From assembly GCF_016056275.1 (NCBI RefSeq), contig NZ_JAECZA010000299.1:1-64000 (forward strand): a stretch of 64,000 bases of DNA. Reading direction: 5' to 3'. This document shows positions 36,336 through 40,730 of the stretch, piece by piece. The position numbers and the translations under genes are program-made. The notes beneath the pieces were generated by a model. The model did not search any database, had not been told where the DNA came from, and worked only from the letters and a program-made list of their open reading frames with translations. The DNA comes from Dendronalium phyllosphericum CENA369. Lineage in GTDB: Bacteria; Cyanobacteriota; Cyanobacteriia; Cyanobacteriales; Nostocaceae. Within the stretch, counting starts at the first letter, position 1. The number at the start of each line of letters is the position of its first letter.

Positions 36336-36384
36336 ATAACTCAGACTTTGATTATCTAAGTTGCACTCACGTATTCTATATGAT

Positions 36385-36436
36385 ATTCCTTATAAAGAAT
36401 ACTATGATTGACATTCTTTATAAGGAATACTATATT
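36385..36436 (+). promoter_or_regulatory. Promoter with embedded inverted-repeat operator for the toxin operon
   Basis: -35 TTGACA (36408-36413), 17-bp spacer, -10 TATATT (36431-36436), near consensus. ATTCCTTATAAAGAAT (36385-36400) and ATTCTTTATAAGGAAT (36413-36428) are perfect 16-bp inverted repeats, each itself near-palindromic and each followed by ACTAT. The right arm fills the -35/-10 spacer and the left arm lies just upstream. This is the layout expected for autorepression by the XRE antitoxin encoded downstream. Confidence 0.8.
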
Positions 36437-36448
36437 GTGAGGTAGGAA

Positions 36449-36856
36449 GTGACTTGGACTTGGGAACTTTATCAAGATGTCAATGGGGAAATCCCTAAAG
36501 ATTTACTTGCTTTTTTCGTCAGGATGATTCCTGAAGAGGAACAACCAGAAAATCCACCAAAGCCATTACTGAGTGCTTCCGAAACCAGGCGTTTGCAAGT
36601 TAGTCTTGGCTACCTGTGCAATAAAGGACTCGCATCACTCACCAGTGACATCTTTGAGAAGTTAGAAGATGACCTGTATGAGTTACGTATGACCAAGAGC
36701 GAACATAATCCACGGTTTATTTTAACGGCTGCTACACCTCAACGGTTTGTAGTGTTGCACGCCTTTATGAAAAAATACGACGGCGCGATCAAAGATAGAG
36801 ACAAAGAACCTGCAAGAGTGAGATTGCGTGAATTGCAGCAGAGGGAACAGTCATGA
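36449..36856 (+). CDS. HigB/RelE-family toxin (phage-derived Gp49-like)
   Basis: 135 residues from GTG 36449 (GAGG at 36439-36442; an in-frame TAG at 36443 excludes an earlier start). FEKLEDDLYELRMTKSEHNPRF and RFVVLHAFMKKYDGAIKDRD are the signature of HigB-like RelE toxins: the substrate-contacting arginine strand and the F-x-K-K helix near the C-terminus. Such proteins cleave mRNA, commonly on the ribosome. Its N-terminal ~45 residues are longer than in the shortest members. It overlaps the antitoxin gene by 4 nt (ATGA). Toxin-first order is the HigBA arrangement. Host-specific activity is inference. Confidence 0.88.
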   Translation: MTWTWELYQDVNGEIPKDLLAFFVRMIPEEEQPENPPKPLLSASETRRLQVSLGYLCNKGLASLTSDIFEKLEDDLYELRMTKSEHNPRFILTAATPQRFVVLHAFMKKYDGAIKDRDKEPARVRLRELQQREQS

Positions 36857-37575
36857 AAAAGCCTAATTTTCAAGCTTGGTTGCAGCAAAAGGTAAGCGAC
36901 GACCCAGAGGTGATTTTGGCGGGAAAGTTAGAGTACTTACGCCTATATTTGACCGATGCGATGCGGGAAATACGTAACAAAGCGGGATTGACTCAGGCGC
37001 AGCTAGCGGAAAAACTAGGAGTGCAGCAAGCGGCGGTGTCTAAATTGGAATCGGCGTTAAAGGAACATGAGTTGGAATCAGTGTTGCACTATTTACATGC
37101 CTTGGGTGCAGATTTGCTGGTAGCCGTAAAAAAAGGGGATGAATTATATCAAGCCAGCGATAACGAAGGTGTATTGCTGGTAGATGTACCAAATGTAGTT
37201 TTTCAAAAGGCATTAGCGGCAAACATGAGCGTCCGCGAATATGTTCGTGTAGCTGTTGAGAAGTTTTCCAGCGAGGATGATGGACTGAGAACAGCTTTGG
37301 TAAAACTGCTCGAAAGTGACGATTCAGTAGCAGTGAAAGTAAGAGCGCGTTTAGGTTCAAGGACAATTCAAGAAATTGCTGTAGAGTTGGAAAAATGTCT
37401 GAGTATCTTAGAGGAAGAATATAGAATTTTTGCTGTAAAAAATGTGTTAGTTGGTAATGTGCCAGTTGTAGAAAGTAATCGCGGAGCCAGTAATGAAATT
37501 GATGAAATTGAGTTGTTATATTTAGCTGAAGAATTGTTAGAAAAATTGGCAGATTTATTAGGTAAATACAAATAA
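36853..37575 (+). CDS. HigA-type XRE antitoxin with long C-terminal extension
   Basis: 240 residues. Residues 36-90 are an XRE helix-turn-helix (LTQAQLAEKLGVQQAAVSKLES, then LESVLHYLHALGADLLVAV), as in HigA-type antitoxins of about 100 residues that neutralise HigB and repress the operon. The remaining ~135 residues are extra. Residues 106-138 (GVLLVDVPNVVFQKA...MSVREYVRVAVEKF) have the strand-helix-helix pattern of ribbon-helix-helix DNA-binding proteins, and 170-240 is acidic and helical. The stop codon is 17 nt before the TPR-CHAT gene, so the three genes are probably co-transcribed. The extension could bind DNA or the CHAT protein (inference). Confidence 0.85.
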   Translation: MKKPNFQAWLQQKVSDDPEVILAGKLEYLRLYLTDAMREIRNKAGLTQAQLAEKLGVQQAAVSKLESALKEHELESVLHYLHALGADLLVAVKKGDELYQASDNEGVLLVDVPNVVFQKALAANMSVREYVRVAVEKFSSEDDGLRTALVKLLESDDSVAVKVRARLGSRTIQEIAVELEKCLSILEEEYRIFAVKNVLVGNVPVVESNRGASNEIDEIELLYLAEELLEKLADLLGKYK

Positions 37576-37592: not shown

Positions 37593-40500
37593 ATGAAAAA
37601 AGAATTGGGTAATGTAAACTACAAACTTGACGAACAACAAGATAAAAATTATCTTGAATTTTTAGTTAATTTATTAAATGTATCTCTAAGTAATGATCAA
37701 AAAAATATTGAATTATTATTAGCTGGAAATCTTGATAAACTCAATAATTATTTTGCTCAGTTAGTATCCAAATTAATAACAGATCTCGTATCTAAGGCAG
37801 AGCCAAGTCAAGCTTTGTTAACTCTAGCTTCAGTTCCTATTTTCAGTGAAATTCTTTATGCTTTTGCGAACGGAAGCCTGACGAATAATCAGGATATAGC
37901 TATCAATGCTTGTGAATGTGTGATTAAAATTTTAAAATCTGATTTTTTTTCAACAGAAACTGAGTTTATATTAAAAAACCTAACTGCACCTACTCAAGCT
38001 ATTTTAGCTAATGCTTATCTTGATCGCATTAATGGCGAAAGAGCAGAGAACTTAGAAAAAGTAATTTATTATGCTGAGAATGCTTTAAAAGGTTATAAAT
38101 ATGAGAATGTACCACAAGCATGGGCATCAACCCACTTCACTCTTTCAATTGCTTATGGCCAGCGTATTCATGGTAGTAAATCAGAGAATATTGAGAAATC
38201 TATTATCTCTTCTAAAAATGCTTTGCTGGTTTATAGCTATGAGGTATTTCCTACAGATTGGGCAAAACTGCAAAATAATTTAGCACTTGCTTATTATCAG
38301 CGTATAGAGGGCGATAAAACAGAGAATTTGGAACTAGCAATCAATTATTGTAAGAATGCTTTGCTGGTTCATACCCGCGATAATTATCTACAAGGTTGGG
38401 CAAAAACTACAATAAATATAGCAAATGCTTACCGAGATCGGAAACAAGGCGAGGTAGTAGATAATATTGAACAGGCTATTGCCTACTACCAAGAGGTATT
38501 AGATTATATTAATCCAAAAATTTTTCCAGAAGAGTGGGCTAAAGCTCAAGTTAATTTAGGTACAACTTATCGACAAAAAAATAAACTAAATAAGTCTGAT
38601 GGTGAAGTATTAGAACAAGCTATTGACTATCATATAAAGGCCATTAGATTTTTTAACCCTGAAACTTTTGATGAAATTTTTGAAATACCACAACCTCTAA
38701 TAGAAGCAGTAAGTAATGCTATTTTAACTGATGAAGAATGGGAAACTTGTATTGATGATACTCAAGTCGAAAATCTACTTATAGCCATAAAATGTTATGA
38801 GCAAGCCTTACAAGTTTCTTCACATGAAATATTTCCAGAACAATGGGCAGGAATTTATATAAGTCTTGGCAGAGCCTATAAAGAAAGACAACAAATTTTA
38901 GAAGCAGTAAAGTCCTTCCAGTCTGCATTGGAATTCTACAAACCCATTACCTTTACTCAAGAATCCTTGAAAATAGGGAGGATATTGGGCAATCTAGCTT
39001 TTTGTCATGGACTATGGTTGGAGGCTATTCAAGGTTACACATCTGCTATTAATGCATTAGAACAGCTTCGTATATCGGTAATTTGCGAGTCACATCGCCA
39101 GAAAATTGTAGAAATATTTTTAGGTCTGTACCAAAACATGGTGCAAGCTTGCATCAACGCTGGACAAATAGAAAAAGCCTTTGAATATTCAGAGCGATCG
39201 CGTTCCAAACGCTTGGTAGACTTAATGGCAAGCTACAACCTTTTCCAAGGCGAAGAAATCCATCCAAAAGTTCAAGAATTATTGCAGCAATACGAAGAAC
39301 TGCAACAGCAAATTGATCGAGAACGCCAACGCCATAAATCTGAAAAGAATCGTAGTGAAACACGTGCTGTTTGGGAAGCTTATAATGAAGCGATCGCATC
39401 TTTGGAAGCCCAAAAACAACAAGTTTGGGAAAATCTCAGACGTGAAGATCCGGTATTAGCTGGAGAAATTCAAGTAAATTCCCTCAGCTTGTCAGAAATT
39501 CAAAAACTACTAATCAACCAGCCTAATACAGCTATTCTCAGTTTCTACACTACAAACAGCGACACCCATATTTTTGTCGCGCAGCAAAGCAAAATTACTG
39601 TCCATACCTGCACAGGACAAGGATTAGATACGTTGCAAGGCTGGATTAACCAGAATTGGTTATTGCCTTATATGCAGGATTTCAAAAAATGGGAAACTCA
39701 AATTAACAATATTCTCCGCGAACTAGCTGAACGCCTACAAATACCTGAACTCATATCCCAACATCTTGAAGCAATAGAAGAGTTAATTTTAGTACCTCAC
39801 CTGTTACTGCATCAGATGCCCTTCACTGCTTTGCCTACAGGAGAATATCAAGAATATTTAGGAGATAAATATCTCATTCGTTACACCCCAAGCTGCCAAA
39901 TATTAGAATTTTGTCAACAACGTGATACTGTAGGGACATTTAATGAAGTATCTCTACAATATGGCATTGTGGAAGATGCAGAAGATAACCTTCCCTGCGC
40001 CAGATTTGAAGGCGAAAAACTCGCCCAAATGTACAACATTCCAACAGAAAACAGATTAATCGGCAGCAGTCAAGCTACCTGTAAAAACTATCGACACTTA
40101 GCACAACAAGTTCAAGTACTTCATTCCTCCCACCATGCAGTCTCTCGCCTCGATAATCCTTTAGAATCACAGCTAAAATTAGCTGATGGTAATATCACGT
40201 TGGGGCAATTAATGACACCAAGCTGGCGTTTACCTCAACTTGTAGAAGTGTTTCTCTCTTGCTGCGAAACTAATTTAGGTACTCCTTCGTTAACTGATGA
40301 TATTCTTACCCTTTCCACAGGATTTTTGTGTGCTGGTGCTAGAAGTGTAGTTAGTACTTTGTGGTCAGTTAATGATTTAGCTACAGCATTATTTTCTATT
40401 TTTTACTATCAGGAGCGACAAGAAGGTAAAAACCGTCCTAAAGCATTAAAGCAAGCCCAAATCAAACTACGCGAACTTAGAAAAGAGGAGTTCTTGAGAT

Positions 40501-40730
40501 GCGAGGATATTAAAAAACTATACAATCACGCAAAAACTGAATTTGAAGAAGCCCAGAATAAAAGATCCCAATACGAGCGAGGTTCAGCAGAGCGGTTAAA
40601 ATGGACTCAGAAATACATAAATTACCAGAAGCTTAAAAATCAGATTGAAGTGATAGAAAATTCCAAAAAGCAATTCCCATTTTCACACCCTCGCTATTGG
40701 GCTGCTTTCATTTGCCAAGGTTTACGATGA
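37593..40730 (+). CDS. TPR-CHAT caspase-like protein
   Basis: 1045 residues. An N-terminal helical domain (about 15-110) is followed by tetratricopeptide repeats (about 125-520; recurring W-A/Y-x-x-R-x-x-G/E-N-x-E pattern), a coiled-coil linker rich in Glu, Gln and Arg (about 560-620), and a C-terminal CHAT protease domain (about 720-1045). The catalytic pair is His848 (LHSSHHA; H-x-x-x-H pattern) and Cys891 (LSCCETN), followed by GARSVVSTLWSVND typical of CHAT. CHAT proteases cleave protein partners on activation and TPRs usually sense or bind a partner. It lies 17 nt after the antitoxin gene. No CRISPR locus is near, so it is not a Craspase. Confidence 0.92.
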   Translation: MKKELGNVNYKLDEQQDKNYLEFLVNLLNVSLSNDQKNIELLLAGNLDKLNNYFAQLVSKLITDLVSKAEPSQALLTLASVPIFSEILYAFANGSLTNNQDIAINACECVIKILKSDFFSTETEFILKNLTAPTQAILANAYLDRINGERAENLEKVIYYAENALKGYKYENVPQAWASTHFTLSIAYGQRIHGSKSENIEKSIISSKNALLVYSYEVFPTDWAKLQNNLALAYYQRIEGDKTENLELAINYCKNALLVHTRDNYLQGWAKTTINIANAYRDRKQGEVVDNIEQAIAYYQEVLDYINPKIFPEEWAKAQVNLGTTYRQKNKLNKSDGEVLEQAIDYHIKAIRFFNPETFDEIFEIPQPLIEAVSNAILTDEEWETCIDDTQVENLLIAIKCYEQALQVSSHEIFPEQWAGIYISLGRAYKERQQILEAVKSFQSALEFYKPITFTQESLKIGRILGNLAFCHGLWLEAIQGYTSAINALEQLRISVICESHRQKIVEIFLGLYQNMVQACINAGQIEKAFEYSERSRSKRLVDLMASYNLFQGEEIHPKVQELLQQYEELQQQIDRERQRHKSEKNRSETRAVWEAYNEAIASLEAQKQQVWENLRREDPVLAGEIQVNSLSLSEIQKLLINQPNTAILSFYTTNSDTHIFVAQQSKITVHTCTGQGLDTLQGWINQNWLLPYMQDFKKWETQINNILRELAERLQIPELISQHLEAIEELILVPHLLLHQMPFTALPTGEYQEYLGDKYLIRYTPSCQILEFCQQRDTVGTFNEVSLQYGIVEDAEDNLPCARFEGEKLAQMYNIPTENRLIGSSQATCKNYRHLAQQVQVLHSSHHAVSRLDNPLESQLKLADGNITLGQLMTPSWRLPQLVEVFLSCCETNLGTPSLTDDILTLSTGFLCAGARSVVSTLWSVNDLATALFSIFYYQERQEGKNRPKALKQAQIKLRELRKEEFLRCEDIKKLYNHAKTEFEEAQNKRSQYERGSAERLKWTQKYINYQKLKNQIEVIENSKKQFPFSHPRYWAAFICQGLR

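Follow-up and report, generated by a model that had tools for sequence, protein, structure and literature searches.

A portable helical tail on a HigA-like antitoxin and its association with one clade of cyanobacterial TPR-CHAT proteins

How the toxins of type II toxin–antitoxin pairs are freed is disputed; the usual explanation is a general protease such as Lon. For sigma factors, protease-gated release is already known. In Craspase, Csx29 cuts Csx30, an inhibitor of a sigma factor, in its C-terminal domain, at a small flexible loop; cutting depends on the size of the loop and not on single residues, and an N-terminal domain is dispensable (PMC10028731, in the accessible part of its text). 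In the type III CRISPR Lon-SAVED system CalpL/CalpT/CalpS, a protease cuts an anti-sigma factor, which is thought to free the sigma factor (PMC11417357, accessible part). Neighbourhoods that combine an ECF sigma factor, a DUF1822 protein and an EACC2-caspase have also been described, with TRADD-N proteins in related loci (PMC8195603, accessible part).

Here we describe a HigBA locus followed by a TPR-CHAT gene. It lies in the window, that is the whole stretch of 64,000 nucleotides that was analysed, on contig C236 of the 8.38 Mb genome of Dendronalium phyllosphericum CENA369. Among the papers listed from the open-licence literature, judged by their titles and the starts of their abstracts, we recognised no description of a CHAT-linked antitoxin.

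The locus and the two units of the antitoxin extension

Toxin, antitoxin and TPR-CHAT protein are encoded by three consecutive co-directional genes. The first specifies a HigB/Gp49-like toxin of 135 aa (36449-36856, plus strand; PF05973, E=4.6e-9). A likely operator is predicted ahead of it, a 23-nt inverted repeat (36378-36435, arms 36378-36400 and 36413-36435) that ends 13 nt before the toxin start and whose arms are each near-palindromic by themselves (ATTCCTTATAAGGAAT type). At 29 of the 38 loci examined, the top-scoring inverted repeat ahead of the toxin gene outscored each of 30 single-base shuffles of that stretch, and these repeats were mostly of the same sequence type as the window's.

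The toxin stop and the antitoxin start overlap by 4 bases. The antitoxin is a HigA-like protein of 240 aa (36853-37575, plus strand) with an HTH (HTH_3/HTH_37) at residues 29-92 (36937-37128, plus strand; PF01381, E=2.2e-9; PF13744, E=2.8e-7), so that a Gp49/RelE-like toxin gene precedes an HTH antitoxin, as in HigBA pairs. The TPR-CHAT protein of 1045 aa (37593-40730, plus strand; PF12770, E=2.1e-39; TPR_12, E=2.6e-7) starts 17 nt past the antitoxin stop, and its CHAT protease domain occupies residues 708-1043 (39714-40721, plus strand), with H848 and C891.

An earlier note, made from the window's letters alone, had described a HigA-type antitoxin with a long C-terminal extension (37162-37575, residues 104-240), and this description stands. 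When the whole 240-aa protein was compared with Pfam, the HTH was the sole family over cut-offs, with its best stretches within residues 29-92. A few sub-cut-off matches touched the extension (e.g., TFX_C, E=0.026, and FeoB_Cyto, E=0.15), and residues 100-240 searched alone matched nothing in Pfam, even with the threshold relaxed to E<=10. The homology of the extension is nonetheless far beyond chance: it was matched over its full length in two other genomes (E=1.6e-56 and E=9.7e-39). The extension is real, with one correction: it divides near residue 150 into two units, as is seen from proteins of other kinds that contain only residues 145-239. As these residues are found by themselves elsewhere, we also rejected the idea that the tail is a portion of the HTH or RHH (ribbon-helix-helix) part.

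An AlphaFold2 model of residues 98-240 (45 rows, mean pLDDT 80) predicts that the extension is folded except for one loop, and not disordered. The first unit is modelled with strands at 100-104 and 107-111 and helices at 114-122 and 127-154, which agrees with the strand and two helices that the note had read at residues 106-138 and adds one more strand. The tail is modelled with helices at 158-167, 172-183, 188-200 and 218-237; pLDDT was below 50 at 203-209 and 211-213. Residues 170-240 had been called acidic and helical, and they do hold 15 D/E vs 8 K/R besides the modelled helices. In a full-length model the RHH-like part was less certain (pLDDT 48-77 by blocks).

All 50 matches listed in a fold search with the full model were to the HTH part or to whole repressors, and residues 98-240 gave nothing under E=0.14 in Foldseek. 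The best VIA-align match, to part of the yeast mitochondrial RNA polymerase, had Z 6.5, in a score range that the tool calls common. No death-domain protein was among the fold matches listed; the tail may still have a death-domain fold.

The first unit (residues 100-143; 37150-37281, plus strand) has, in the model, the RHH topology of a beta-hairpin and two helices, and it is present in all 45 tailed HigA genes. Its kinship with RHH proteins is weak. Against 14 RHH_1 proteins, hhalign gave a probability of 13.8 (control 1.1). VIA-align returned one structural match, PDB 3ft7 (Z 3.8, rmsd 1.9, 37 residues), which we take to be an RHH protein. In Pfam, one of 11 members matched a NikA-like family at E=0.016, and RHH_1 was listed for none. 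The aspartate D111, invariant in 11 of 11 aligned rows, presumably sits where Arc has a DNA-contacting arginine. Of the note's RHH proposal, the modelled topology fits and the similarity is slight, and its suggestion of a double DNA-binding antitoxin is unsupported.

The second unit, hereafter the tail, is a separate helical domain at residues ~152-237, for which we built a profile of 86 positions. The profile matches the window's antitoxin at residues 152-235 (37306-37557, plus strand; E=1.9e-33), a segment modelled as four helices. No Pfam or NCBIfam model exceeded its cut-off over the tail, and among PDB sequences compared with the profile nothing was convincing (best E=0.0026, 'Syn-F4-Link', 23 positions).

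Distribution of the tail and its link to one CHAT clade

When 291 genomes of the order were searched with residues 100-240, 70 of them had matches; many of the matches cover residues 145-239 only and lie in proteins of other kinds. The single 86-position profile gathers these tails. In the phylum the tail occurs in 49 of 386 genomes, all within the window's own family or order. Weak matches to frames of 747 and 1208 aa (L109, L073) were dropped, since they are absent from the profile's match list. No over-cut-off Pfam model fell in the tail of the tailed proteins scanned, except for a long DUF1822 match that brackets it.

These sequences indicate that the tail is portable, being found on HigA and on unrelated regulators. 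One carrier (L061) is a DUF1822 protein (PF08852, E=1.7e-31, residues 12-170) with the tail at 168-257; DUF1822-tail operons include a gene for 215-240 aa that is sigma-like by eye and has only weak HTH matches in Pfam. In a long DUF1822 protein (L069) PF08852 extends over residues 13-450 and brackets the tail at 166-259; therefore, the tail may be an insert or partly covered by the model. A third carrier joins an HTH, a TRADD-N domain (PF20694, 1.4e-16) and the tail in one protein (L066, 6999-7949), and its gene sits directly 5′ of one for a 1481-aa TPR-CHAT protein.

The tail additionally forms the C-terminal half of a 196-aa protein adjoining a 127-aa one, and of ~155-aa proteins adjoining an unnamed 231-aa protein (copies at L226 8843-9538, L199 6571-7266 and L046 6536-7231). 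The 231-aa protein had no over-cut-off match in Pfam or NCBIfam when the L046 copy was compared, and PADLOC and PHROGs listed nothing for the L226 copy; it is a candidate effector, perhaps a nuclease, judging by eye only. Its tailed partner matched Csm2 in PADLOC (E=0.017) and two PHROGs families (best E=0.0036) outside the tail. The second tail gene of the window's genome (L071 7426-7899, contig C306; 157 aa) has a neighbour that encodes 234 aa and is related to the 231-aa protein, and no CHAT of the tail-linked kind was found in its 15-kb locus.

Three loci (L199, L226, L230) have two cassettes, HigBA-tail and 231-aa/tail, ahead of one common TPR-CHAT gene. In another, a single open frame (L244 8001-9125) fuses HigA, the RHH-like part, the tail and TPR repeats; a 937-aa TPR-CHAT follows it. 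Unnamed extra genes, of a 249-aa family and a 184-199-aa family, separate tailed HigA from TPR-CHAT at L041 3287-4036, L042 4257-5006, L036 6732-7286 and L043 6218-6817.

A toxin frame, whole or broken, lies upstream of all 45 non-redundant tailed HigA genes. The tailed antitoxin can be open though the toxin gene is split into two frames (L199 8133-8506, L243 7597-8014, L220 7598-8004). Of the 44 tailed HigA genes that could be tested, 42 are followed within 4 kb by a TPR-CHAT gene, or a recognisable remnant of one, in the same orientation. None of the untailed HTH relatives (34 of 44 were testable) is followed by one, including the six among them that stand beside a related toxin. For both these and the loop counts below, 11 loci repeating already included contigs were removed. 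The 42 linked loci are not independent, because many Nostoc loci are orthologous, and owing to this shared descent the Fisher p values are too small.

The two exceptions (L220, L242) keep a tailed HigA without a scored CHAT; in L242 the toxin frame is open. By eye, and unscored, a short frame in L242 resembles the start of a TPR-CHAT. One of the six untailed relatives beside a toxin (L045) belongs to the same HigBA subfamily; it has the HTH and the RHH-like part, no tail and an open toxin frame, and no CHAT was found in its 15-kb locus.

When tail genes of all types were counted across the order, 36 of 94 had a co-directional CHAT gene starting within 2.5 kb downstream and 58 had none. The 36 comprise 11 of 12 HigA genes, 15 of 18 other genes for 205-300 aa, the only one for 300-400 aa (1/1), none of the 10 for at least 400 aa (five of which have a CHAT at another place in their locus) and, among genes for less than 205 aa, 9 of 53. 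Anywhere in the examined stretch, 49 of the 94 tail genes lacked a CHAT of the tail-linked kind, 42 of the 53 smallest among them. These size classes make the link strong for HigA and short DUF1822 proteins and weak for small tailed proteins. The note had asked whether the extension occurs only beside TPR-CHAT genes: this nearly holds for HigA, but the tail also stands on other proteins, many of them with no close CHAT. Its proposal of a docking or protease-target region for the CHAT neighbour is well supported at the level of sequence by the 42 of 44 against 0 of 34, and so is the tail-CHAT link as such.

In a tree of CHAT domains, 57 tail-linked CHATs formed one clade (SH-aLRT 99), apart from L208 and 20 other CHATs of the window's genome. 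They belong to five cassette types, mixed inside the clade, and one unclassified case; in two of them (L099, L100) the tail gene is ~4 kb away. The tree was made by a quick method, and branches between CHATs outside the clade are long. It was built from 104 CHAT matches minus 36 that cover 75% or less of the model; the second entries of L146 and L147, two CHATs of the window's genome that had been mislabelled HigA in one copy, are not counted, and L148, L034, L233, L246, L247, L248, L253 and L200 were left out as copies or split genes. The window's genome has 38 CHAT-domain matches, and 20 of the 37 others entered the tree; of its 21 CHATs there, only the window's copy falls in the tail-linked clade. 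With a general CHAT profile, 4 of 92 loci had a CHAT of another kind only; other CHAT kinds near tails could be missed, because the queries derived from this clade.

Conversely, among the 36 CHATs most like the window's (~373 bits or more), 28 had a tail gene nearby on the same strand by the coordinates of 47 tail places, and one more (L328) was found by profile. Of the remaining seven, five have the end of a contig close by upstream, and two (G167, G127) have a different upstream gene and no tail gene. Below these 36 the link weakens, to 8 of the next 37 by coordinates plus L339 and L341 by profile.

All 57 tail-linked CHATs have His and Cys at the H848 and C891 columns, where the alignment with Csx29 also places one of its His and one of its Cys, as expected from sequence for a CHAT domain with catalytic His and Cys. 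The protein falls outside the Csx29 family of NCBIfam (NF041237, 71.3 bits vs a cut-off of 300). No tail match lay on the CHAT-bearing frames examined, which argues against a homotypic effector-associated domain (EAD). A homotypic adaptor between the tail and the CHAT N-terminus was likewise rejected, as the tail showed no similarity to the first 150 aa of tail-linked CHATs (hhalign probability 0.1).

A candidate cleavage loop and the readings of the tail

The loop between the last two tail helices, NVPVVESNRGASNEIDEIE (residues 202-220; 37456-37512, plus strand), includes R210 (codon 37480-37482, plus strand), which is invariant in 12 of 12. Low model confidence in this stretch presumably reflects flexibility. 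We compared loops in 136 testable tails, 94 of them near a CHAT (same strand, within 3 kb) and 42 not near. All 94 tails near a CHAT had loops of 15 residues or more, vs 21 of the 42 others, and the loop held an arginine in 92 of 94 vs 24 of 42; the CHAT-linked tails without the arginine are L339 and L341. Nineteen of the 42 tails not near a CHAT nevertheless have a long loop with an arginine. The correlation is confounded by descent, because most short-loop tails look like one subfamily, and it is no more than suggestive of a cleavage loop. The Csx30 precedent does not demand a conserved arginine, because Csx30 is cut without any single essential residue.

From the tail homology, the one-clade CHAT linkage, the loop with its arginine and the conserved His and Cys we infer binding, cutting, a cut site, a trigger and toxin release. 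In the reading that we somewhat favour, the TPR-CHAT protein docks on the tail and cuts the loop, the antitoxin is lost and HigB is freed. The HTH part of HigA would bind DNA, the N-terminal part would hold the toxin, as other HigA proteins do, and the RHH-like part would probably aid dimerisation or toxin holding. The tail would be a protease handle whose helices are bound by TPR-CHAT. The TPR part would sense a trigger and thereby activate the CHAT domain, and the flexible loop that joins the last two tail helices would be cut, most likely close to R210. The cut antitoxin would be lost and HigB would be free. The cassettes that share one CHAT, the fusion of HigA, tail and TPR repeats in L244, and L045 with neither tail nor CHAT are in favour of this reading. 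As the same handle stands on several regulators, one protease clade could trigger different outputs.

Tails without a CHAT count against this reading, and so does the lack of co-variation among tails that share one. Concerted change of such tails seemed to be present over the 17 pairs taken together (p=0.0016), but it was rejected because it vanishes within the 14 Nostocaceae pairs, whose tails resemble each other no more than those of shuffled pairs do (p=0.49).

If the tail were only a docking module, the protease would act on other proteins, and the toxin would be freed by binding or by general proteases. We consider this rather unlikely. It would accommodate the tails that exist without a nearby CHAT, and both the linkage and the one-clade result indicate a partnership, not a cut. 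However, a flexible loop that contains a conserved arginine and is never shorter than 15 aa in the 94 tails near a CHAT looks substrate-like and resembles the loop of Csx30.

The direction of control could also be reversed, with the tail holding TPR-CHAT off, HigBA making the locus addictive and the loss of HigA unleashing the protease. In HigA loci the tailed protein is indeed encoded ahead of the CHAT gene, and the tail is common to several cassette types with different partners. This arrangement seems improbable to us, as it leaves the loop with its arginine unexplained, and in L199 the toxin is broken while the tailed HigA and the TPR-CHAT are open, so addiction is unnecessary there.

That the extension is a second DNA-binding and oligomerisation region (RHH plus helices), with the CHAT as a passenger, would suit the RHH-like topology, the weak RHH match and the palindromic operator-like repeat upstream, but we find it very hard to reconcile with the CHAT linkage (42/44 vs 0/34), with the acidic D111 in the RHH strand and with the tails that, unaccompanied by an HTH or RHH-like part, belong to DUF1822 proteins and others encoded next to CHATs of this clade.

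Extended to all carriers, the protease-handle reading would make the tail the basis of a protease-triggered cyanobacterial platform, in which a single clade of TPR-CHAT proteins has a portable substrate domain carried by HigA, DUF1822 proteins, the partner of the 231-aa protein and the TRADD-N regulator. We advance this only tentatively, as a possibility not far from even. If it is true, the same caspase-like signal frees a toxin or switches transcription, in a CRISPR-free counterpart of Craspase.

Comparison with known systems

If cleavage of the tail is true, a dedicated caspase-like protease and a matching antitoxin domain make up a directly testable toxin switch. Among the many TPR-CHAT proteins of cyanobacteria, one branch would gain a set of predicted substrates, and the logic of Craspase would extend beyond CRISPR.

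The locus resembles type II HigBA systems (Gp49/HTH_37) in that the toxin comes first and the HTH antitoxin second, the genes overlap and an operator-like inverted repeat is present; it differs in the antitoxin of 240 aa with two extra units and in the protease gene that follows. The neighbourhoods in the accessible part of PMC8195603 likewise bring together a sigma factor gene, a DUF1822 protein and a caspase-like protein, whereas the shared tail and HigBA are not described in that part. CalpL, too, is a protease that cuts the inhibitor of a regulator, an anti-sigma factor; it is, however, a Lon protease activated by cA4, and its system, in the accessible text, has no toxin–antitoxin pair (PMC11417357).

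Craspase (Csx29/Csx30/CASP-sigma) differs in several respects. The effector here is the HigB toxin, with a cleavage that we infer; the frames read around the HigBA-CHAT locus included none that we recognised as a CRISPR gene, and the tail has no sequence link to a solved structure among the PDB sequences searched by profile. The likeness lies in the TPR-CHAT protease with conserved His and Cys, in a sigma-like gene in one cassette type of the tail family, and in Csx30 itself, an effector inhibitor that, in the accessible part of PMC10028731, carries a small flexible loop in its C-terminal domain.
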